IMG/VR virus record: IMGVR_UViG_3300030419_000158
Location: 1-30,065 of that record
Source of the DNA: a virus
Strand: one strand, 5' to 3'
Length of the DNA: 30,065 bases
Below are positions 4,636-22,456 of the stretch, in pieces; the first letter of the stretch is position 1; every line of letters begins with the position of its first letter. The translations under genes and the position numbers were made by a program. The notes beneath the pieces were generated by a model. The model was not told the origin of the DNA, searched no databases, and worked only from the letters and a program-made list of their open reading frames with translations.

Positions 4636-6780
4636 ATGGCTGATGTAAACAACCCAGATGATACAGTACTGGGACTAGACGAGCCAAAAGAAAAAGAAGG
4701 AAGCTATGAAGATTTTTCTAATCTTCAAGGTTTAGTTAAAGAAAGATTTTTTAGATCAGAAGATGCTAGACTTTTTGATGAAAGTCGTTGGCTAAGATCA
4801 TACAGAAACTATAGAGGTATCTATGGTTCTGATATGTCTTTTACTGAAAAAGAAAAATCTAGAGTATTTGTTAAAATAACAAAAACTAAAGTTCTAGCTG
4901 CTTTTGGTCAATTAATAGAGGTTTTATTTTCAACAGGAAAATTTCCTATTGGAGTAGAGCCTACACCTATACCTGAAGGTATATCAGAGTATGCTAGAGT
5001 TAAACAACCTAATGAACCAGATAAAGAAGAAGATAACGTTGTAGATCTATATGGATTTCCAGGTGATGGAAAAGAAATGTTACCTGGAACTACAACAAGT
5101 GATTTACTTAGAGGATTAGAAAAAGAGTATGAAGGTGTGGATTTTGCAGATGGACCATCTCCAGTATCACCACAGATACCTCAAATAGAACCTGCAAGAG
5201 AAGCTGCAGAAAATTTACAGAAGTTAATTCATGATCAATTAGAAGAAACTTCTGCTATAACAATGTTAAGGCATGTTTTATTTGAAATGGTTTTACTTGG
5301 AACTGGAGTATTAAAAGGTCCATTTACACATGATAAAACTATTCATAGATGGGAAACAAATGAAGAAACTGGCGAAAGCATGTATAACCCATCGACTAAA
5401 TCTGTTCCAAAATTAGAGGCTGTTAGCCTTTGGGATTTTTATCCAGATCCTGATGCAACAAGCATAGAAGATTGTGACTATGTAATACAAAGACATTCTT
5501 TAAATAGATCACAGTTAAGAGATTTAAAAAATAGACCATACTTTAGAAAAGAAGCTATTAAAGAATGTTTAAGAATGGGTGCTAATTATGAAGTTAGAGG
5601 TTTTGAAACAGCACTGTTAGATAGAGAAAATGTTGATGATCTTAAAAAACAAAGATTTGAAATATATGAATACTGGGGATCAATGGATAAACAACTTGCG
5701 GAAGAAGCAGGTTTAGAACTTGGTGATGATTTTGAAGAACTAGATGAAGTTCAAATAAATGCTTGGATATGTAATGGTCATGTATTAAGATTAGTATTAA
5801 ATCCATTTACTCCTGAACGAATACCTTTTCATGTATGCCCATATGAAATAAATCCATATCAATTTTTTGGCGTAGGTATACCAGAAAATATGGAAGATGC
5901 ACAAATGGTAATGAATGGTCATGCAAGAATGGCCATAGATAATTTAGCATTAGCAGGTAACTTAGTATTTGATATTGATGAAACACAATTAGTTCCAGGA
6001 CAAGACATGAATATATATCCTGGTAAGATATTTAGAAGACAATCTGGTGTAACAGGAACAGCAATAAATGGATTAAAGTTTCCTAATACTGCACCAGAAA
6101 ACTTAATGATGTTTGATAAATTTAGACAGCTTGCAGATGAAGCAACTGGTATACCATCATACTCTCATGGTGCAACAGGTGTACAATCAACAACAAGAAC
6201 TGCAGCAGGTATGTCTATGCTTATGGGAGCAGCCGCATTAAGTATTAAAACTGTTGTTAAAAATATAGATGATTATTTATTAAAACCCCTTGGTGATACT
6301 TTATTTGCATGGAACATGCAGTTTAACTATGATATAGAACCAGTTAAGGGTGATCTAGAAATAAAAGCAAGAGGAACATCTTCTCTAATGCAAAAAGAAG
6401 TTAGGTCACAAAGATTAATGACATTTATGCAAACAGCTAATAATCCAAATATAGCACCGTTTGTAAGATGGCATTCTATATTAAGAGAAATTGCAAAGTC
6501 ATTAGATATTGATCCAGATCAACTAATTAATGATCCAGAAAGTGCACAACTATTCGCAAAAATAATGGGGATGACAAATGGAAATCAACAAACTCAAAAC
6601 ACTAATCAGCAACAAGCTAACATGGCAGATTCTCAAAGAGTACCTCCAGGAGCAAATCCAGCTGACCCAACAGGAGTTGGAGGTGGCAACATCGGAGCAG
6701 GAGCTGTTCCGCAACCAGGGGAAACTGCATTCTCTCAGGAGACTACTCTCCCTAGAGCAGCAACTAGACAAGAAGGATAA
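4636..6780 (+). CDS. Portal protein (head-tail connector), 714 aa
   Basis: The portal ring forms the capsid vertex through which DNA enters and leaves and on which the terminase docks. The N-terminal third (RWLRSYRNYRGIYGSDMSF, then SRVFVKITKTKVLAAFGQLI) and the block WDFYPDPDATSIEDCDYVIQ (266-285) are the pattern I know from podovirus-type portals of marine phages, and the length of about 700 aa fits P22-like rather than siphovirus portals. The start has TAAGG 7-11 nt upstream. From about residue 640 the protein becomes low-complexity (Gln/Asn, then Pro/Gly/Ala), and this tail overlaps a second reading frame (6578-6802). It follows terL, as usual for packaging clusters. Confidence 0.92.
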   Translation: MADVNNPDDTVLGLDEPKEKEGSYEDFSNLQGLVKERFFRSEDARLFDESRWLRSYRNYRGIYGSDMSFTEKEKSRVFVKITKTKVLAAFGQLIEVLFSTGKFPIGVEPTPIPEGISEYARVKQPNEPDKEEDNVVDLYGFPGDGKEMLPGTTTSDLLRGLEKEYEGVDFADGPSPVSPQIPQIEPAREAAENLQKLIHDQLEETSAITMLRHVLFEMVLLGTGVLKGPFTHDKTIHRWETNEETGESMYNPSTKSVPKLEAVSLWDFYPDPDATSIEDCDYVIQRHSLNRSQLRDLKNRPYFRKEAIKECLRMGANYEVRGFETALLDRENVDDLKKQRFEIYEYWGSMDKQLAEEAGLELGDDFEELDEVQINAWICNGHVLRLVLNPFTPERIPFHVCPYEINPYQFFGVGIPENMEDAQMVMNGHARMAIDNLALAGNLVFDIDETQLVPGQDMNIYPGKIFRRQSGVTGTAINGLKFPNTAPENLMMFDKFRQLADEATGIPSYSHGATGVQSTTRTAAGMSMLMGAAALSIKTVVKNIDDYLLKPLGDTLFAWNMQFNYDIEPVKGDLEIKARGTSSLMQKEVRSQRLMTFMQTANNPNIAPFVRWHSILREIAKSLDIDPDQLINDPESAQLFAKIMGMTNGNQQTQNTNQQQANMADSQRVPPGANPADPTGVGGGNIGAGAVPQPGETAFSQETTLPRAATRQEG

Positions 6781-12082: not shown

Positions 12083-13174
12083 ATGAATTATTTACAACTC
12101 ACAAATGCAGTATTGGCAGAACTTAATGAAGTGCAACTCACTTCATCTACATTTACTAATAGTAGTGGTATTCAGACAACAGTAAAAGATATTATTAATA
12201 AAGCATTAAGAGATGTATATTCATCAGAATTAGAGTGGCCTTGGTTACATAGTGATAAAACACAAGTTACATACGCTGGACAAAAAGAGTACTCATTACC
12301 AACTGATTTTAGGTCAGTTGATTTTGAGTCTTTTTATTTAGTGCCTACAGAATTAGTAACAAACTCTACTTTTGATAGTAACATAACAAACTGGTCAACA
12401 GTATCAGGATCACCAGCATATAACTCTGGTGGTAATGGAAGGTTAAGATTAAATGCAGCAGCAGCATCTGCAAGTTTATCAACAGTAAAGAATAGAGAGT
12501 ATAGAGTACAAGTAAGAGTTATGGATACATCATCCAGTGGCTCTAGTTTAAAAGTACAAGTAGGAACATCAGCTGCAGGAACACAAAATTTAAACACAAC
12601 AATAACTGTATCTGATTTTGGTGATGGTAAGATATTAGATACAACTTTTACAGCAACAGCTTCTACATCACATATTACATTAGATAATGATGACTCTAAT
12701 AATTTAGATGTAGATTTTGTAAAAGTATCAGAAAATTTACCACCTAAAAAATTAATATACATAACGTACGATGATTATAGAAGAAGATTTTTAGCAACAG
12801 CACAAACTAATAATAGTGATCATTATGGTACACCCGATTATGTATTTAAAACACAAGATGATAAGTTTGGATTGTATAGAGTTCCTGATTCGGATGGTTA
12901 TACTATAAATTATGAATATTGGAAAACACACTCTGATTTATCTGCATCAACAGATACACCAGACATACCTGCAAGATTTCATGATGTGGTTGTAGCAAGA
13001 GCAAAGTATTATATTTATAATCTTAGATCTGACCCACAGTTTACACAGTTTGCAGATAGAGATTATAGAGAAGGTGTTAAAAGAATGAGAATTGAATTAA
13101 TTAATGCACCAAGTGAAATGTTAGATACTAGGGTAAACTTAGGATATAATAGACGAGGTGCATTGAGTGGCTGA
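12083..13174 (+). CDS. Tail adaptor (head-tail connector, gp4/gp11-like) with an inserted jelly-roll-like domain
   Basis: Residues 1-88 (NYLQLTNAVLAELNEVQL, DIINKALRDVYSSELEWPWL, YSLPTDFRSVDFESFYLVP) and 218-363 (PPKKLIYITYDDYRRRF, DIPARFHDVVVARAKYYIYN, RMRIELINAPSEMLDTRVNL) together match the adaptor ring that connects portal and nozzle in podoviruses. Between them about 130 residues (89-217) form a separate beta-rich module. It starts ELVTNSTFDSNITNWSTVSG and ends ITLDNDDSNNLDVDFVKVSE, the profile of a CBM4/9-like jelly roll. The start overlaps nothing; the end overlaps the nozzle gene by 8 nt. Confidence 0.85.
   Translation: MNYLQLTNAVLAELNEVQLTSSTFTNSSGIQTTVKDIINKALRDVYSSELEWPWLHSDKTQVTYAGQKEYSLPTDFRSVDFESFYLVPTELVTNSTFDSNITNWSTVSGSPAYNSGGNGRLRLNAAAASASLSTVKNREYRVQVRVMDTSSSGSSLKVQVGTSAAGTQNLNTTITVSDFGDGKILDTTFTATASTSHITLDNDDSNNLDVDFVKVSENLPPKKLIYITYDDYRRRFLATAQTNNSDHYGTPDYVFKTQDDKFGLYRVPDSDGYTINYEYWKTHSDLSASTDTPDIPARFHDVVVARAKYYIYNLRSDPQFTQFADRDYREGVKRMRIELINAPSEMLDTRVNLGYNRRGALSG
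12347..12733 (+). other. Carbohydrate-binding-like (jelly-roll) insertion inside the tail adaptor
   Basis: The insertion begins with the 'LVTNSTFDSNITNWST' pattern that typifies CBM4/9-like domains (N-F-x-G/S-x(3-5)-W). It continues with alternating strand patterns (REYRVQVRVMDTSSSGSSLK, VQVGTSAAGTQNLNTTIT) and ends with a 'LDVDFVKV' strand. Removing it joins SFYLVP to PPKKLIYITYDDY, which matches the compact adaptor architecture. Sugar binding is inferred, not shown. Confidence 0.65.
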
Positions 13175-14705
13175 TACTTCACAGATATCACCTTTTGTAT
13201 TTGGTTGTGGTGGAGGACTTGTTTTAAACAAAGATTCTTTTTCTTATCAACCAGGTGAAACAAAAGTATTACAAAATTTTGAACCAGATGTTAAAGGTGG
13301 ATACAAAAAAATACTAGGTACAACTAAATGGAACTCTAATATAGTTCCACAAGTATCCTCATCTAGCGAACGAGTTGTAATGTCAGCTATATTTGGTAGT
13401 GTAGTACTAGCAGCTAGAGGTGGCAGTATACATAGAGGATCAACTGGATCAGGAAGTTGGACATCTACTATAACAGGTTTAGGTACACCAACAGCTAATT
13501 ATACATTTAGAAAATTTAATTTTGACGGCACTGATAGAATTATAATATGTACAGGCACATCTAGTCCACAATTGTTAACATCTGCATTCTCTGCATCTGT
13601 TGTAAATGCTAGTGGGACTGCTAATTTTAAATTTGTAGAAATATTTAAAAATCATATATTTTTTGCAGGTGATTCTAGTAATGCACAGCAACTTAGTTTT
13701 ATGGGTCCGTTTCAAACTAATGATTTTACATCAGGTAATGGTGGTGGCGTTATTAAAGTAGATACAGAAATAAAAGGCATAAAAGTATTTAGGGATGCAC
13801 TATTTATATTTGGACAAGATAAGATATTTAAGTTAGTAGGAAATACAGAATCTGATTTTGCAATAGCACCTGTTACAAGAAAAATAGGATGTGTTGATGG
13901 TGGATCTATACAGGAACTTGGTGGTGATATTATATACCTAGCACCAGATGGTTTAAGAACTATTGCAGGTACAGAAAGAATCGGTGACGTAGAACTTGGT
14001 ACTATATCTAAACAAATACAGCAACGTATTGATGATATAACTTTAGATAATATTACATCAGTAGTTATTAGAAATAAATCACAGTACAGATTATTTTATC
14101 CAGTTACAACTGGTGCAGAATCAGGAGCAAAAGGAATTATTGGAGTAATTAAAACTAATCCAAATACAGGACAGCTTGGATATGAGTATGCAGATATTAG
14201 TGGATTAAAAGTATCATCTACTGATTCTGATTTTATAAGTAATACGGAAACTATTGTTAGTGGTGGCTATGATGGTTTTGTATATCAACAAGAATCTGGC
14301 AATGAGTTTACTAGAGCAGCTGCAACTTTTGCTATACCAGGTAGATACAGATCTCCTGACTTAACTATGGGAGATCCAGGTATAAGAAAAAATATGCAAA
14401 GAGTTATCGTTAACTATACTAACGAAGGTCAAGTAGATGCTAACTTACAAGTTAGATATGACTTTGATGCAAGCACTACACCACAGCCTGCAGCAGTTCC
14501 AATAACAACAGGTAACGTACCTGCACTATATGGAACTGGAGTTTATAATACATCTGTTTATGGACAGTCAGGTATACCACTAGTAAGGCAACATGTTGTG
14601 GGATCAGGGTTTACAGTTGCCTTAAAAGTTACAGATGATAGCACAAACCCACCAATAAGTTTAAAAGGTTTTGAATTAGAATTTGTCCCAGGAGGAAGAA
14701 GATAA
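13167..14705 (+). CDS. Tail nozzle / tubular protein (gp10/gpB-like)
   Basis: The nozzle forms the distal tube of the short tail. The 512-aa product begins with the typical SQISPFVFGCGGGLVLNKDS and LQNFEPDVKGGYKKILGT, 'NFEPDxxGGYxxxxG' being a hallmark of this family in podoviruses. It continues with repeated beta-strand patterns suggesting the propeller (VVMSAIFGSVVLAARGGS, IFGQDKIFKLVGNTESDFAI, GGDIIYLAPDGLRTIAGTER) and ends with a beta-rich platform (PISLKGFELEFVPGGRR). The start is GTG 13167, with GAGGTG just upstream and an 8-nt overlap with the adaptor gene, the same arrangement as the terL start. Confidence 0.88.
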   Translation: MADTSQISPFVFGCGGGLVLNKDSFSYQPGETKVLQNFEPDVKGGYKKILGTTKWNSNIVPQVSSSSERVVMSAIFGSVVLAARGGSIHRGSTGSGSWTSTITGLGTPTANYTFRKFNFDGTDRIIICTGTSSPQLLTSAFSASVVNASGTANFKFVEIFKNHIFFAGDSSNAQQLSFMGPFQTNDFTSGNGGGVIKVDTEIKGIKVFRDALFIFGQDKIFKLVGNTESDFAIAPVTRKIGCVDGGSIQELGGDIIYLAPDGLRTIAGTERIGDVELGTISKQIQQRIDDITLDNITSVVIRNKSQYRLFYPVTTGAESGAKGIIGVIKTNPNTGQLGYEYADISGLKVSSTDSDFISNTETIVSGGYDGFVYQQESGNEFTRAAATFAIPGRYRSPDLTMGDPGIRKNMQRVIVNYTNEGQVDANLQVRYDFDASTTPQPAAVPITTGNVPALYGTGVYNTSVYGQSGIPLVRQHVVGSGFTVALKVTDDSTNPPISLKGFELEFVPGGRR

Positions 14706-17449
14706 TGGCAGTATATTCAGCTAGACAAAGCTCATACAGTGATGGCGATACTATTACCGCAGCTCACACTAATGATGAGTTTAATGCGATACTAGCAGCG
14801 TTTAACGTATCAACAGGTCACACCCATGACGGCAGTACTGCTGGAGATGGTGGGCCTATATCTAAATTATTTAGTAATACAATAACATTCGGTACAGGTG
14901 CTGATACAGATGTTGCTGTAACATTTGATGGTAATACATCTGATGGTGTATTGACATGGATGGAAGATGAAGACTATTTCCAGTTTTCTGATGATATACT
15001 ATTAACAACTACAGAAAAATTACAGTTTAGAGATACTGCAATATATATTAATTCATCTACAGATGGTCAATTAGATTTAGTAGCAGATACAGAAATACAG
15101 ATAGCAGCCACTACAATAGATATAAATGGTGCAGTAGATGTATCAGGTAATTTATCAGTTGGTGGTAATTTAGACGTTACTGGCACATTAGATTTATCAG
15201 ACTCTAACTTTACTAATGTAGGATCTATACAATTAGATTCTATAGCTGGTGATGGAGATACAGACACAAGTATTACATTTAGTGGATCTGATGTTATAAC
15301 TATAGCAGCTGGTGGAGCTAATCAAGTAACATTTACTGATGGTGCAATTGTTCCATCAACAAATAACGATATTGATTTAGGTACAAGTTCTGTAGAATTT
15401 AAAGATGCATTTTTTGATGGTACAGTAACTACTGATGCATTAGTTGCAGGTACTGCAGATATTAATGGTGGTACATTAGATGGTGTAACTATAGGTGGAT
15501 CTAGTGCTGCAGCTATAACAGGTACAACTATTACTGGTACTAGTTTTGTTATTGGTTCTGCAGATATAAATGAATCAGAACTAGAAACTATAGATGGAGT
15601 TACTGCAGGAACTGTTTCAGCTTCAAAAGCTATTGTTGCTGATTCTAACAAAGATATAACAGGTGGTCGTAATATTACTATCACTGGTGAGTTAGATACT
15701 GCTACTTTAGATGTTTCAGGAGATGCAGATATTGATGGAACAACTAATTTAGATAATACAGATATTGACGGAACACTAGTAGTTGATGGATCTAATATTT
15801 CACTTGATAGTACTTCAACTTTAAACATAGATAACTCTAATACATCTAATGGTATTACTATTGGAACGGCTACATCAGGTGTGCCTATTTCTATTGGGCA
15901 TACAACTTCTGAAGTAACAGTAAATGATAACTTAACTGTTACAGGAGATCTAACTGTTAGTGGCACAACAACTACAGTAAACTCAACTACTGTAAATTTA
16001 AATGATCACAATCTTGTTTTAGATTCTGGTAACAGCACATCTGCAGTTGTAAACGGTGCAGGTATAACTATTGAAGGTGGGTCTGGAGATGATGCTACAT
16101 TTAGCTATAATACTACAGGTCCTAAATTTGAATTAAAACTTGGATCATCACATGAAGATTTACAAGTAGATCAACTTATTGCTGCATCTCTTGATATATC
16201 AGGAGACGTAGACGTAGATGGTACTTTAGAAACAGATGCTTTATCTATAAACGGAACTACAGTAACATCAACAGCAGCTGAGTTAAATTTAGTAGATGGT
16301 ATTACCGCAGGAACTGTATCAGCTTCATTGGCTGTGATTGCAGATTCTAATAAAGACGTATCAGGATTTAGAAATGTAACACTAACTGGTGAACTAGATG
16401 CAGCAACATTAGATATATCTGGTGATGCTGACATAGATGGTACTCTAGAGGCAGATGCTATTACAGTAGATGGAACTGCTCTTGCTACATTAATTGCAGC
16501 AACCACAGTAACAAATGCTACAAATGCAGCACATGTAAGTGTTGCAGATAATGAAAGCACCAACGAAGAAAATTTAATTACATTTATTGAAGATACTTCA
16601 GCTACAGGTAATGTTGGTCTAGAATCAGATGGTGACTTTACATATAATCCAAGCACAGGAACAGTAACAGCTACTATATTTAAAGGTAATATTGATGCTG
16701 TAGATGGAGACTTTGATGGAACTCTTGAAACAGATGCACTATCAATAGCAGGAACAACAGTAACTGCCACTGCAGCAGAACTTAACTATAGTGATACAGG
16801 AGCATCTGTTGGTACAGTTGTTGCAAGTAAAGTTGTAACAGTAGATTCAAATAAAGATGTATCATCATTTAGAAACATCACATTAACAGGAGAACTTGAT
16901 GCAGGCTCTCTTGATGTTAGTGGAGATGCAGATATTGATGGCACATTAGAGGCAGATGCAATTACAGTAAATGGAACTGCACTAGCATCATCAGCAACAA
17001 CAGATACTACTGATGCATCAAATATTGGATCTGGTACTTTAGCAGCAGCAAGAATGGCAGCTGCACAAACAGGTATTACTTCTATCTTAGCTACAGATTT
17101 AAAAATTGGAGAAGACAATGAAACTAAGATAGATTTTGAAGATGCTAATAATATTAATTTCTATGCAAACAATGCAAAAGAAATGGTATTATCTGAAAAT
17201 GCATTAACACCAGGAACATCTGATGGAACTGCATTAGGTACAACATCTTTAATGTGGTCTGATTTATTCTTAGCATCAGGCAGTGTAATTAATTTTAATA
17301 ACGGTGATGTTACTTTAACACACAGCTCTAATACTTTAACAGTGGCTGGAGGCACATTAGAAGCATCAGCAATAACAATAGGTGGATCATCAGTAACTGC
17401 TGGTGGAGCATCAAAAGGATTCGCAGTCGCTATGGCGATTGCATTATAA
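14705..17449 (+). CDS. Tail fibre / spike protein with internal repeats (914 aa)
   Basis: The N-terminus (residues 10-53: SYSDGDTITAAHTNDEFNAI then STGHTHDGSTAGDGGPI) is the virion-anchoring pattern I know from marine phage fibres. The remainder is Thr/Asp/Gly/Ser-rich and beta-rich, consistent with a long beta-helix or triple-beta stalk. Three related segments at 15593, 16295 and 16793 repeat a 'GTVxASK..xDSNKD...RN(I/V)TxTGELD' block followed by SGDADIDGTLEADAITV, and two of them extend over about 270 nt each. The C-terminus ends hydrophobic (SKGFAVAMAIAL). No cleaving peptidase domain is visible, unlike the later fibres. It overlaps the nozzle gene by one base. Confidence 0.85.
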   Translation: MAVYSARQSSYSDGDTITAAHTNDEFNAILAAFNVSTGHTHDGSTAGDGGPISKLFSNTITFGTGADTDVAVTFDGNTSDGVLTWMEDEDYFQFSDDILLTTTEKLQFRDTAIYINSSTDGQLDLVADTEIQIAATTIDINGAVDVSGNLSVGGNLDVTGTLDLSDSNFTNVGSIQLDSIAGDGDTDTSITFSGSDVITIAAGGANQVTFTDGAIVPSTNNDIDLGTSSVEFKDAFFDGTVTTDALVAGTADINGGTLDGVTIGGSSAAAITGTTITGTSFVIGSADINESELETIDGVTAGTVSASKAIVADSNKDITGGRNITITGELDTATLDVSGDADIDGTTNLDNTDIDGTLVVDGSNISLDSTSTLNIDNSNTSNGITIGTATSGVPISIGHTTSEVTVNDNLTVTGDLTVSGTTTTVNSTTVNLNDHNLVLDSGNSTSAVVNGAGITIEGGSGDDATFSYNTTGPKFELKLGSSHEDLQVDQLIAASLDISGDVDVDGTLETDALSINGTTVTSTAAELNLVDGITAGTVSASLAVIADSNKDVSGFRNVTLTGELDAATLDISGDADIDGTLEADAITVDGTALATLIAATTVTNATNAAHVSVADNESTNEENLITFIEDTSATGNVGLESDGDFTYNPSTGTVTATIFKGNIDAVDGDFDGTLETDALSIAGTTVTATAAELNYSDTGASVGTVVASKVVTVDSNKDVSSFRNITLTGELDAGSLDVSGDADIDGTLEADAITVNGTALASSATTDTTDASNIGSGTLAAARMAAAQTGITSILATDLKIGEDNETKIDFEDANNINFYANNAKEMVLSENALTPGTSDGTALGTTSLMWSDLFLASGSVINFNNGDVTLTHSSNTLTVAGGTLEASAITIGGSSVTAGGASKGFAVAMAIAL
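15593..15742 (+). repeat. Fibre internal repeat, copy 1 (partial)
   Basis: A 150-nt block encoding DGVTAGTVSASKAIVADSNK then DITGGRNITITGELDTATLD and VSGDADIDGT. It is colinear with 16295-16444 in copy 2 and with the block from 16793 in copy 3. Upstream the similarity weakens (NESELETI instead of TAAELNLV). Confidence 0.75.
16217..16486 (+). repeat. Fibre internal repeat, copy 2
   Basis: A 270-nt block starting DGTLETDALSINGTTVTSTA, with AAELNLVDGITAGTVSASLA and a GELDAATLDISGDADIDGTL core, ending EADAITVDGTALA. It matches copy 3 (16715-16987) codon by codon, apart from one extra codon in copy 3. Confidence 0.8.
16715..16987 (+). repeat. Fibre internal repeat, copy 3
   Basis: A 273-nt block starting DGTLETDALSIAGTTVTATA, with AAELNYSDTGASVGTVVASK and GELDAGSLDVSGDADIDGTL, ending EADAITVNGTALA. 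It lies 498 nt downstream of copy 2, so unrelated sequence separates the copies. Third-position changes show the copies are old or under selection for protein sequence. Confidence 0.8.
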
Positions 17450-17800: not shown

Positions 17801-17977
17801 ATGGCACAAGAAGAAGTAGGAGGTCCATTATTTGTAGGATCAGGACCTGCATCAGAGCAGATACCTGAACATGATTCTACAGTGGATGAAAATCAAACAG
17901 TTGGTAGTGCAGTTGTTGCAGGACCAATAACAATTAACGCTGTGATAACAGTCACAGGAACTATGGTGGTAATATAA
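17801..17977 (+). CDS. Small fibre-associated protein (58 aa)
   Basis: ATG 17801 has the SD AAGGAGATATT, and the gene ends in a TAATG overlap with the next. The N-terminal half is acidic and Gly/Pro-rich (MAQEEVGGPLFVGSGPASEQ). The C-terminal half (VDENQTVGSAVVAGPITINA then VITVTGTMVVI) is the 'NQTxG...xxxGPITIxxxVxVTVxxGxxWVI' beta-repeat that often closes or accompanies phage fibre genes, here without a final Trp. I infer a short triple-stranded beta element that may cap or join a fibre. Confidence 0.65.
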   Translation: MAQEEVGGPLFVGSGPASEQIPEHDSTVDENQTVGSAVVAGPITINAVITVTGTMVVI

Positions 17978-19326
17978 TGGCAGGAATACAAATAGACGGA
18001 GTTAATAATAAGATTGACTTTGATGATGATGCAGATACCAGTATATCGTCAGCTACAGATGATACGCTAGTAGTAGAAGTAGGTGGTAATACCCTTGCAA
18101 CTGTAACAGCAACAGGAGTAACTATTAATGATGGCACTACAATTACAACTGCTGATAATACAGACACACTTACATTAACATCGACAGATGCTGATGCTAG
18201 TTCTGGGCCTAATATTGTTTTAAACAGAGACAGTGGCTCTCCAGCAGATAATGATATTGTTGGTCAATTTACATTTAGAGCTGATAATGATGCAGGTGAA
18301 GCAACTGATTATTGTAGATTCAGAACTCATTTAGTAGATGTTAGTGATGGTACTGAAGACGGTAACTTTAGATTATTTACTTTATCAGGTGGTGCTGAAT
18401 TATCTAGGATTGATGTAGATGCAACAGAAACAGCATTTAATGAAGACTCAGCAGACATAGACTTCCGAGTAGAAGGTAATGGTAACATAAATTTATTGTT
18501 TGTCGATGCTGGTGAAGATTCTGTTTATATTAATGCTTCTGGTCAACAAGCTGATGAAAAGTTTTTAGTTAATAATAATGATAATAGTAAAGGATTATTT
18601 TCTAGATGTACAAGTGGCTCACAAGCTAATGACACAGTTCATTTTGATGCTAACAGAGCAGCTACATCTTCTTATAATTTTATAAGAATAATGTCAGGTA
18701 ACAGCACAGACTCTGAATTTATTTTTACTGGTGAAGGTAATGCTCTTGCTGATGGTAGTTTTAGTGGAGGTGGTGCAGATTACGCAGAGTATTTTGAATG
18801 GAAAGATGGCAACAGTTCTGATGAAGATAGAGTTGGTTGCTCAGTAGTTCTCGATGGTAACAAAATCGTTAAAGCCACCGATAGTGATGATGCTTCTAAA
18901 ATTATAGGTGTCATATCTGCTTGTCCAGTGGTTGTTGGAGATTCTGATATAGAGCAATGGTTACAAAAATATGAGAAAGACGAATTAAATCGTTTTATTT
19001 GGGAGGATTACGAAAGTGTAATATGGTTTGATGAAAAAGGCAAAGATACTTTTTATCATGTAGACCGAGTGCCTAATGGTGTGACAATACCTGATGATGC
19101 AATCTACTATCGAACAGAAGATGATGGTGTTACTAAATTAAAACGTAAAAAATTAAATCCAGCTTATGACGAATCTAAAACTTATATTTCTAGAAAAGAT
19201 AGAAAAGAATGGGGTACTGTTGGTCTTGTAGGTAAACTAAGAATTAAAAAAGGACAACCAACAGGAACAAATTGGATTAAAATGAGAGACATCTCAGACA
19301 CAGTAGAGGAGTGGTTAGTTAGATGA
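17977..19326 (+). CDS. Tail fibre with C-terminal Peptidase_G2-like self-cleaving domain (449 aa)
   Basis: Residues 1-265 are a beta-rich stalk (ADNTDTLTLTSTDADASSGP, FRVEGNGNINLLFVDAGEDS). From residue 266 (GADYAEYFEWKDGN) through VGCSVVLDGNKIVKATDSDD and IIGVISACPVVVGDS to the end WIKMRDISDTVEEW, the sequence matches the intramolecular chaperone/auto-cleaving domain first described for the neck appendage of Bacillus phages phi29 and GA-1 (Peptidase_G2). This domain helps the fibre trimerise, then cuts itself off. It shares a near-identical 59-nt segment with the next gene. The start is set by TAATG; the stop forms ATGA with the next start. Confidence 0.85.
   Translation: MAGIQIDGVNNKIDFDDDADTSISSATDDTLVVEVGGNTLATVTATGVTINDGTTITTADNTDTLTLTSTDADASSGPNIVLNRDSGSPADNDIVGQFTFRADNDAGEATDYCRFRTHLVDVSDGTEDGNFRLFTLSGGAELSRIDVDATETAFNEDSADIDFRVEGNGNINLLFVDAGEDSVYINASGQQADEKFLVNNNDNSKGLFSRCTSGSQANDTVHFDANRAATSSYNFIRIMSGNSTDSEFIFTGEGNALADGSFSGGGADYAEYFEWKDGNSSDEDRVGCSVVLDGNKIVKATDSDDASKIIGVISACPVVVGDSDIEQWLQKYEKDELNRFIWEDYESVIWFDEKGKDTFYHVDRVPNGVTIPDDAIYYRTEDDGVTKLKRKKLNPAYDESKTYISRKDRKEWGTVGLVGKLRIKKGQPTGTNWIKMRDISDTVEEWLVR
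18139..18197 (+). repeat. Shared fibre segment, copy A
   Basis: This 59-nt stretch, encoding TITTADNTDTLTLTSTDADA, differs from 19434-19492 at only three positions by direct comparison. A more diverged third version lies at 21125-21183. The three occur in three consecutive fibre genes. Confidence 0.85.
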
Positions 19327-21020
19327 CAAGTACAATTAAAGTAGATACAATTAGTGAGAACACCAGTGCAAATGGCGTAGCTATAGATAGTGTAACATTG
19401 AAGGATGGTGGCATTACAGCTACTGCTGCAAGTACAATTACAACTGCTGATAACACGGACACACTTACATTAACATCAACAGATGCTGATGCAAACGTAG
19501 GTCCGAATTTAAGATTATATAGAAACTCAGGAAGCCCAGCAAATAGTGATGTATTAGGTGCTATAGAGTTTGAAGGTAGAAATAATAATTCTCAAGATGT
19601 TGTTTATGGCAGCATAGTATCATCTCTATCAGATGTTACTGATGGTGCTGAACATGGTCTTATGGAGTTTAAGTCAATGGTTGGTGGTACTAATCAATTA
19701 AGAATGTCATTTGATGATACCTCGGTAATATTTAACCAAGATTCAATAGACTCAGACTTCCGAGTAGAATCTAATGGTAATACACATATGTTATTTATTG
19801 AAGGGGGCACGGACAGAATTTTAATAAATAAAAGTTCTGCAACAACAAAATGGTTTAATGGCACAAGTATAGTTCCCAATTTTGAAATATTTGGAACAGA
19901 CAATACGTCAGGTAGAATGACCGCACTTACTTACGGTGCGGATGATGCAGGTGCTGCTATGTTTGTATTTGGTAAACAAAGAGATGGTACACCTGATAGT
20001 TACACTATTGCTCAAAATAATGATCAACTGGGTATTATTTCTTTTCAAGGTGCAGATGGTACACACTTCGTTGAAGCAGCTAGCATTAGAGTTGATGTAG
20101 ATAAGGCAACTGGTTCTGATGATATGCCAGGAAGAATAGAGTTTCATACAACAGCCGATGGTGCTAACGCTGGATCTGAAAGAATGCGTATTGGTTCTGG
20201 AGGTCACATTGGTATTGGAGTTGCCACAGAATCAAACAAAGTAAGAATACTTCAAGACCAATCAGATGAAAACTGTGTGCAAATAGAATACGACACAAGC
20301 TCTGCTGATGAAAGTGTTATGAGATGGTTTTGTGATAGATCTGCAAATGCAGCTTGGGATTTTTTACAAGCATATTCAAATAACGCATCCAGTGCTGACT
20401 TAGAATATCAAATGAGGTCAGCTGGTGATATGTCTATGGATGGCACTCTTACAGAAAATGGTGCGGATTATGCCGAGTATTTTGAAACAGTAGACGGCAA
20501 TGCAATAGCGATTGGAAAAACAGTTGTATTAGAAAACGGCAAGGTAAGAGCGTCTACTTCTAGTGATGACGCATCAGCTATTATTGGAGTGGTTAGACCA
20601 AAAGAAAACGGTAAAATTTCTGCGGTAATTGGTAATGCTGGTTGGAATAAATGGCATAATAAATATTTAACAGATGACTTTGGAGTTTATATTTGGGAAG
20701 ATTACACAGTCAAAGAATGGACTGAAACCATTAATAATGAAAACGGCACTGTTACAACAAAAAACCACTCATACCCCTCTGATTTTATCCCTGAAGGTGT
20801 AACTGCACCAGCGGATGCAAAAGAATTAACACAACAGAGAAGAAAACAAAATCCTGATTGGAATAAAGACATTGAATATAAACCAAGATCGGAAAGAGAC
20901 GAGTGGGTTGTTATTGGATTACTTGGTCAGATACCAATTAACAAAGATCAAAAAACTGGAGACCGATGGATTAAAATGAAAGACATTTCAGACACAATAG
21001 AGGAGTGGTATATAAGATGA
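19323..21020 (+). CDS. Tail fibre with C-terminal Peptidase_G2-like domain, second paralogue (565 aa)
   Basis: Start ATG 19323 overlaps the previous TGA (ATGA). The N-terminus, MTSTIKVDTISENTSANGVA then IDSVTLKDGGITATAASTIT, is shared with the third fibre gene. The middle (residues about 100-375) is unlike its neighbours. Residues 380-565 repeat the Peptidase_G2 layout: GADYAEYFETVDGN, GKTVVLENGKVRASTSSDDA, AIIGVVRPKENGKISAVIGN, ending WIKMKDISDTIEEWYIR. The enlarged domain is consistent with maturation by self-cleavage. Comparison with the first paralogue shows conserved ends and a variable body, the usual pattern for host-recognition proteins. Confidence 0.85.
   Translation: MTSTIKVDTISENTSANGVAIDSVTLKDGGITATAASTITTADNTDTLTLTSTDADANVGPNLRLYRNSGSPANSDVLGAIEFEGRNNNSQDVVYGSIVSSLSDVTDGAEHGLMEFKSMVGGTNQLRMSFDDTSVIFNQDSIDSDFRVESNGNTHMLFIEGGTDRILINKSSATTKWFNGTSIVPNFEIFGTDNTSGRMTALTYGADDAGAAMFVFGKQRDGTPDSYTIAQNNDQLGIISFQGADGTHFVEAASIRVDVDKATGSDDMPGRIEFHTTADGANAGSERMRIGSGGHIGIGVATESNKVRILQDQSDENCVQIEYDTSSADESVMRWFCDRSANAAWDFLQAYSNNASSADLEYQMRSAGDMSMDGTLTENGADYAEYFETVDGNAIAIGKTVVLENGKVRASTSSDDASAIIGVVRPKENGKISAVIGNAGWNKWHNKYLTDDFGVYIWEDYTVKEWTETINNENGTVTTKNHSYPSDFIPEGVTAPADAKELTQQRRKQNPDWNKDIEYKPRSERDEWVVIGLLGQIPINKDQKTGDRWIKMKDISDTIEEWYIR
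19434..19492 (+). repeat. Shared fibre segment, copy B
   Basis: It is 56 of 59 bases identical with copy A at 18139-18197 by manual alignment. It lies just after a second shared stretch (19371-19442) that matches 21062-21133 in the third fibre gene. Confidence 0.85.
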
Positions 21021-22456
21021 GTGAAATAAGAGTAGATACAGTATCAGAAAAAACATCAGCGAATGGCGTTGCTATTGATAGTGTAACATTAAAGGATGGT
21101 GGCATAACTGCAACTGCTGCAAGTACGATTACTGTAGCTGATAACTCAGATACACTTTCTTTAATATCAACAGATGCAGACGCTAACGCTGGACCAGTAT
21201 TAAGATTGTTTAGAAACTCTGCTTCTCCAGCAGACGATGATGTAGCTGGTAGCATTGTATTCTCAGGAGAAGATGATGGAAGTAATGAAACTGATTATGC
21301 CTCAATTAAAGTTATTACTGAAGATGTAACAGACGGCACGGAAGATGGAAGATTAAGTTTTAATATTATAGATGGTGGAAGTGCGGTAGAAGTAATGTCT
21401 ATTTTTGACAATTTTGTCGGTATTGGTACTACTGCACCTGAACAAGTTTTGCATGTTCATGGAGGTGATTCTGGTAGTTCTTATTCAGCAGATAATGCAG
21501 ACAGACTTATTATTGAAAATAACGACTCGTTAAGAATAGACATGAGAACAGGCACTTCAAACACAGTTGGTATAATGTTCTCTGATACAACAAGAAATAG
21601 AGCCTCAATAAATTATAGTCACAGCACAGACCACATGACACTTACACACGAAGGTGATAAGTCTTTTGTCATGGGTGGTGGTAGAACTCAAACAGGAGGA
21701 GAGACTTCTGGTGATGTTTCTGCTGGTGGACTTTGTTTAAATATGGGAGCTAATGATGCTCAAATTTTAAGTTTTAAATCTTCTGATATTGATCATGGAA
21801 TAACATCTGGAACAGGCAACAATGCTGAAACTGATACTTATGGATCAATTAAAAAAGTAGATTCTAATAATGGAGGATGTAAACTTTCAGGATATACTGA
21901 AGGTTCAAGCGTAATGGCAATAGAGTTGTTTGGTTACACTACAACTCCAGATAGTGCCTTCAGTGTTTCTTCTCAAGGCATTGTTCAAATTAGAGCTGTA
22001 GAAAAAAGTGGAAGTTCTTATACAGGAGTCGGTAATGATGATAATATGTTTGCTGTTAAAAATGATGGTAGCACAAAATTTATAGTTAGAGGTGATGGAG
22101 ATATTGGGCATGATGGAAGTGCAAGTGCGTTTGATGAATACGAAGATGCTCACCTTGCACGAGCTTTAGATTTGTCTCATGGTAATGGTGTTATTGACTC
22201 TAAGTTTGATCAGTTTGTAAAATATAATCATGAAGATTTAGCTAAGATAGGTTTAGTTGGCAGAGAAAAAGATGGCACACCTAATCATTTTATAAACATT
22301 ACAGGTTTTCAAAGACTTCATAATGGTGCCATCTGGCAACAGTACGAGAAACATCAAAGATTGGCGGAAGCCGTGTATGAGATGGCAAAAGAAGTATTAG
22401 GCGAAGACAAAGCAAATGCAATACTTGAAAAGCATGATATAAAGTTATTAAATTAA
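21017..22456 (+). CDS. Tail fibre paralogue with a different C-terminal domain (479 aa)
   Basis: I choose ATG 21017 because it gives an ATGA junction with the previous stop and aligns MSEIRVDTVSEKTSANGVAI with the preceding paralogue; the GTG at 21005 is four codons upstream. Residues 1-90 match the preceding fibre (DSVTLKDGGITATAASTI). The central part is beta-rich with VGIGTTAPEQVLHVHGGDSG and similar fibre patterns. The C-terminus lacks Peptidase_G2. Instead residues 377-479 read DAHLARALDLSHGNG, FVKYNHEDLAKIGLVGREKD, PNHFINITGFQRLHNGAIWQ and then a helix, a C-terminal unit I recall from other marine phage fibres, probably a trimerisation or folding cap. Confidence 0.82.
   Translation: MSEIRVDTVSEKTSANGVAIDSVTLKDGGITATAASTITVADNSDTLSLISTDADANAGPVLRLFRNSASPADDDVAGSIVFSGEDDGSNETDYASIKVITEDVTDGTEDGRLSFNIIDGGSAVEVMSIFDNFVGIGTTAPEQVLHVHGGDSGSSYSADNADRLIIENNDSLRIDMRTGTSNTVGIMFSDTTRNRASINYSHSTDHMTLTHEGDKSFVMGGGRTQTGGETSGDVSAGGLCLNMGANDAQILSFKSSDIDHGITSGTGNNAETDTYGSIKKVDSNNGGCKLSGYTEGSSVMAIELFGYTTTPDSAFSVSSQGIVQIRAVEKSGSSYTGVGNDDNMFAVKNDGSTKFIVRGDGDIGHDGSASAFDEYEDAHLARALDLSHGNGVIDSKFDQFVKYNHEDLAKIGLVGREKDGTPNHFINITGFQRLHNGAIWQQYEKHQRLAEAVYEMAKEVLGEDKANAILEKHDIKLLN
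21125..21183 (+). repeat. Shared fibre segment, copy C (diverged)
   Basis: It is colinear with copies A and B and encodes TITVADNSDTLSLISTDADA, with several base changes. It marks the N-terminal module shared by all three consecutive fibres. Confidence 0.75.

Follow-up and report, generated by a model that had tools for sequence, protein, structure and literature searches.

The head-tail adaptor encoded in the window (the whole stretch of DNA analysed, a virus record of 30,065 bases) is an SU10/T7-type tail adaptor with a CBM4_9-like beta-sandwich inserted at residues about 88-218. This insert is considered to have a slightly better than even chance of being an accessory glycan-binding decoration of an HMO-2011-type podophage adaptor, formed by a CBM4/9-type sandwich acquired in the dock. 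Judged from its fold, the insert may bind sugar; a common fold alone is no proof of glycan binding. No description of a CBM in a podophage adaptor was found in the literature searched, a search that was incomplete.

Siphophages of Gram-positive hosts are known to carry accessory CBMs on their virions. If the insert does bind glycan, it would provide a testable adsorption route for phages of SAR11-type cells, and receptor surveys confined to fibres and spikes would overlook part of the adhesive surface. A ready comparison is offered by nature, in relatives that carry the insert and others that lack it.

The adaptor gene and the fold of the inserted domain

The adaptor gene (12083..13174, plus strand, 363 amino acids) is assigned to the SU10_adaptor family (Pfam PF24175, 3.5e-21), whose gathering score it passes with 77 bits against a cut-off of 27. 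The profile alignment is interrupted around the inserted segment. The tail protein family phrog_10775 also matches, at 2.3e-41. Three parts can be distinguished on the plus strand. The N-terminal part (12083..12343, residues 1-87) comprises the bundle helices and the first dock strands, modelled as helices 3-13 and 30-47 and strands 56-62, 69-71 and 76-88, and aligns with the compact HMO-2011 adaptor at 40% identity. It is followed by the inserted CBM4_9-like domain (12344..12739, residues about 86/89-218/219) and by the C-terminal part (12740..13171, residues 220-363), which holds the remaining dock (strand region 253-281), helix 229-241, the long helices 297-314 and 318-340 and a disordered C-terminal tail, with pLDDT below 50 at residues 345-363.

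The portal protein (4636..6780, plus strand; Pfam SU10_portal, 3e-30) is encoded upstream of the adaptor. Directly downstream lie a short-form nozzle (tail tubular B-like) protein without insertion (13167..14705, plus strand) and the primary tail fibre (14705..17449, plus strand), residues 1-170 of which are the presumed anchor. Identities to HTVC033P and HMO-2011, respectively, are 64% and 50% for the portal, 55% and 41% for the capsid, and 58% (gp67) and 48% (gp44) for the nozzle; on this sequence evidence, the structural module is that of an HMO-2011-type podophage. The virus belongs to a group of abundant marine viruses whose hosts are probably SAR11-type bacteria; for the window this host is suggested by the relatedness and a G+C content of 35.4%. 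The nozzle is also matched by the head closure family phrog_578 (1.8e-6). PHROG 5107 names the nozzle family "amidase", a label that looks wrong, since the place of the gene and its homologues HMO-2011 gp44 and HTVC033P gp67 indicate a nozzle. Further downstream, positions 17977-22456 encode three consecutive related proteins, 38-47% identical in parts; the first two (17977-19325 and 19323-21020) contain Peptidase_G2 auto-cleavage domains and resemble pre-neck appendage proteins. A minus-strand reading frame of 142 amino acids (12334-12762) covers the insert almost exactly and is probably a by-product of codon composition.

An AlphaFold2 model of the adaptor monomer, built from 54 sequences, reached a mean pLDDT of 88.8. 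The insert appears in it as a separate beta-sandwich (strands 105-217, mostly pLDDT 85-95) placed between dock strand 76-88 and helix 229-241. Structural alignment of model residues 86-219 with a porphyran CBM gave Z 16.4 and rmsd 1.9 over 125 residues, and CBM16 (Z 15.5), CBM61 (15.3) and CBM4-2 (15.1) aligned as well. The CBM4/16/22 beta-sandwich fold is present, with Z 14-16 to CBM4-2, CBM16, the 1gui CBM4 and the Xyn10B N-terminal CBM. Matches found with Foldseek and structural alignment are mostly carbohydrate-active or cell-binding, namely CBM16, CBM22, CBM4-2, CBM61, porphyran and alginate CBMs, GH101 sugar-binding modules and the K2-2 tailspike. The sandwiches of Cry and Vip3 proteins align as well as the CBMs do, at Z 14-16.6. 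Outside the insert, the core matches the solved adaptors of cyanophage A4 (9k09, Z 17.0), VP1 (8zkk, 15.4), Pa223 (15.3) and SU10 (7z47, 15.1), and 193-201 residues of the helical bundle and beta dock fold are aligned at Z 15-17.

At the sequence level, the insert cut out of the protein (residues 88-218) matches Pfam CBM_4_9 (PF02018) at 1.3e-6, with 29.2 bits against a gathering score of 25.9; the full-length adaptor scores 24.6, just under this threshold. The same family matches 8 of 10 aligned relatives of the insert at E<=0.1, the best at 5.7e-11. The resemblance to CBM_4_9 is well above chance. A local sequence match to a xylanase-like bacterial protein was also obtained. Sequence searches of the insert against the PDB gave nothing meaningful, the match to PDB chain 7onh being judged a chance one, and searches of NCBIfam and of plasmids gave no match. 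N94 and W104 are present in all 120 unique relatives and F97 in 97% of them. The conserved aromatics F97, W104, Y140 and F189 look like core residues of the fold, by strand alternation.

The preliminary description had placed an inserted jelly-roll segment at 12347-12733 (residues 89-217) and had noted an N-F-D/S...W pattern of CBM4/9-like folds. Structural alignment moves these boundaries by about two residues, the conservation of N94, F97 and W104 bears out the pattern, and the CBM_4_9 profile, the model and the structural alignments agree on the fold. The idea that the segment is an integral part of the adaptor core is ruled out by the abundant compact homologues and by its folding as a unit in the model of the whole protein.

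Distribution, gain and loss of the insert

In scans of viral contigs, adaptor relatives were found in two sizes, of 361-377 and 237-240 residues. The 297 complete adaptors that were typed include 163 with the CBM-like insert, 108 compact forms, 24 with an unrelated module of about 70 residues and 2 intermediates; these counts reflect the queries used, cover some contigs more than once and should not be read as natural frequencies. Homologues with and without the insertion, for which the preliminary description had proposed a search, are therefore both at hand. Apart from the other module, complete adaptors hold the CBM-like insert whole or not at all.

Among isolates, one of 26 matching phage records, that of HTVC033P, aligns through the insert, and a search of phage genomes with the insert only likewise matches HTVC033P only. 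A HTVC033P-like phage contig in the Pelagibacteraceae single-cell assembly AG-422-J20 (L371) encodes an adaptor with the insert, 90% identical to that of HTVC033P; consequently, a SAR11 host is supported for the HTVC033P-like branch. A relative of the insert (37% identity over 91 residues) was also observed at residues about 107-194 of a nozzle-like phage protein of 910 amino acids (L372, reading frame from 4683), in a MAG contig binned as Cyclobacteriaceae.

Changes of state were examined on an adaptor tree of 70 representatives built from the core only, with the insert columns left out. The CBM state requires two changes on this tree, and the starred branches force two. The second change is a compact group (L272, L274, L278, L280, L286 and L287) nested inside the CBM clade. 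One member, L272, shares 68% core identity with the insert-bearing L288, and the difference between them is a clean in-frame domain. A single origin of the CBM clade was found in 0 of 200 bootstraps; when one CBM clade was enforced, the AU test gave a borderline p of 0.0504 and no formal rejection. The CBM state therefore probably changed at least twice, a strong case that stops short of formal proof. Gain plus loss and two gains cannot be told apart on the core tree. The gain or loss among close relatives that the preliminary description had proposed to look for is thus probable; only about two state changes are visible, too few to support a correlation with host.

The insert is under purifying selection and, given a median omega of 0.19 (core 0.13), is maintained and not decaying. 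Its identity follows that of the core, and it is no more variable than the core. A fast-diversifying receptor domain was consequently rejected, there being no sign of diversifying change. The same values bear on the possibility that the insert is near-neutral cargo, spread by recombination without strong function into an exposed dock loop that tolerates it. Dock and nozzle loops do accept unrelated modules, but an omega of 0.19 and the all-or-none presence of the insert, the other module aside, make this reading very improbable.

Position in the neck and candidate functions

The adaptors of T7 and SU10 consist of a helix bundle, a beta "fibre dock" and a C-terminal embracing element (PMC6702177, PMC9509320). 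The T7 dock is itself a small jelly-roll (PMC6702177), and the equivalent dock sheet of the KP32 adaptor (residues 57-99) has been proposed to be lectin-like (PMC5440376). The insert is situated inside this fibre dock region. By analogy with SU10, the adaptor would form a 12-subunit ring below the portal, with up to 12 insert copies per virion (PMC9509320), and the dock position in solved homologues suggests that the insert faces outward (PMC9509320, PMC6702177).

The following sequence of events is proposed. The adaptor of an HMO-2011-type marine podophage would have gained a beta-sandwich of the CBM4/9 type in its fibre dock. If 12 adaptor subunits lie under the portal, as they do in SU10 and T7, up to 12 sandwiches would stand out from the neck next to the fibre bases. 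As an accessory adhesin, they could make weak multivalent contact with polysaccharide of the host surface or of the host's surroundings, and this contact might aid reversible adsorption or align the particle ahead of commitment by the fibres. This reading is supported by the fold, the CBM_4_9 family and precedent: in lactococcal 936 phages the neck, the major tail protein and Dit are decorated with CBMs, and the neck CBM was measured to bind the host weakly (PMC6669499); Vibrio phage OWB binds a host receptor through its adaptor and nozzle (PMC7241545). The clean presence or absence at one site, as between L288 and L272, and the independence of fibre anchors from the insert also speak for it. 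Against it, the invariant aromatics seem to belong to the core, the variability of the insert looks unlike that of a typical receptor-specificity domain, and CBM-like sandwiches serve other roles too, as the equal scores of Cry and Vip3 illustrate.

A serious rival, although an unlikely one, is a structural brace: the insert would pack on the capsid at the portal vertex, on other adaptors or on the fibre bases, binding protein and not sugar, and would stabilise the neck or set the fibre angle. Such a role is compatible with the location of the insert in the dock domain, the SU10 counterpart of which has loops close to both capsid and fibre bases (PMC9509320), with its evolution at the rate of the core under purifying selection and with the occurrence of CBM-like folds in proteins other than glycan hydrolases (Cry, Vip3). 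A brace is harder to reconcile with the complete dispensability of the insert in close relatives with similar cores and with the predominance of carbohydrate modules among its relatives in other proteins.

The insert could also be dedicated to holding the primary fibre, as a larger counterpart of the small adaptor jelly-roll that docks the fibre in T7; T7 gp11, SU10 gp11 and P-SCSP1u gp22 hold their fibres by the same region (PMC6702177, PMC9509320, PMC10575957). Such a dock would be expected to co-occur with particular fibre anchors. The N-terminus of the window fibre shares 69% identity with that of HTVC115P, a phage with no CBM in its adaptor, but only 42% with that of HTVC033P, whose adaptor carries it. 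Across 196 non-redundant loci, with anchors clustered by 80% identity linkage, one cluster holds 56 CBM, 23 other-module, 19 compact and 1 intermediate adaptors. Some cross-type pairs have anchors 95-98% identical, with adaptor cores sharing only 36-54% (L259/L264 and L290/L272 are among them). Near-identical anchors thus occur with and without the insert, which consequently disfavours a dedicated dock, and the dock strands common to compact adaptors are still present in the insert-bearing model. This explanation is regarded as improbable, and the separateness from the main fibre claimed in the preliminary description is supported. The pattern also suggests that fibre genes are exchanged often between lineages.

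The chance is slim at best that the insert docks another appendage, for example the Peptidase_G2-type proteins, and has no part in host binding. Three related candidate appendage proteins are encoded downstream in the window, and SU10 has two fibre sets (PMC9509320); its second set docks on the nozzle, however, and HTVC033P has the insert while blastp found no homologue among its gp62, gp64 and gp66.

The accessory glycan-binding reading may be part of a wider pattern. An unrelated module of about 70 residues with a GCTRGAN motif occupies a different dock loop in 24 adaptors. Its sequence (IGNEQITYTGI..TFTGCTRGANSTTAA-like) was observed in HMO-2011-like adaptors at L226:1823-2758 and 23 other loci, and it matches no Pfam family. 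The model of an adaptor with this TRG-motif module has a mean pLDDT of 81.6, and its core matches the solved adaptors of A4, Pa223, VP1 and SU10. Related loci (L268, L115 and L288) also encode the module in their nozzle proteins, with up to three copies each, and it occurs in the nozzle of Skadi pelagiphages too. As a separate observation, the nozzles of several compact-adaptor phages (L209:6718-9138, which is CRP-345, and L203, L204 and L208) have about 80-300 extra residues after about residue 60-95, and the CRP-345 nozzle weakly matches the T5 pb9 B domain (6e-5). The adaptor-nozzle ring may be a general module-insertion site in marine podophages. More tentatively, the HMO-2011-type adaptor and nozzle could form a docking ring with exchangeable surface modules, a neck adhesive layer changed independently of the fibres. 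The possible basis for this idea is that at least two unrelated domains (CBM4_9-like and TRG-motif) occupy separate dock loops and that both kinds are also found in nozzles. If true, SAR11-linked phages would have a second adsorption system.

Comparison with known systems

The window adaptor shares its helical-bundle core and dock position with SU10 gp11, T7 gp11, KP32 TTPA and P-SCSP1u gp22, and the gene order portal-...-adaptor-nozzle-fibre is that of SU10/T7-type phages. In these phages the docks are small sheets or loops in a protein of 190-230 amino acids, whereas the window adaptor adds a complete CBM4_9-like domain of about 130 residues. The CBM4_9, CBM16 and CBM22 modules found in glycan hydrolases such as xylanases resemble the insert in fold (Z 14-16, rmsd about 2 A) and in their N-G-x-F...W motif at the start; their identity to it is 10-21%, and a ligand cleft in the insert is putative. 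Another close case is gp70 of Pelagibacter phage HTVC033P, a putative tail structure protein with the same adaptor and insert (49% identity over 338 residues), whose annotation omits the domain and whose fibre anchor is of another subtype than that of the window. Lactococcal 936 siphophages are alike in bearing accessory CBMs away from the receptor-binding protein and in some members only, on the neck passage structure, the TpeX of the major tail protein and the evolved Dit (PMC6669499). They differ in that their hosts are Gram-positive and that BppA-type and other CBMs are carried on separate collar fibres or tail proteins, whereas in the window podophage the domain lies in line within one adaptor ring.
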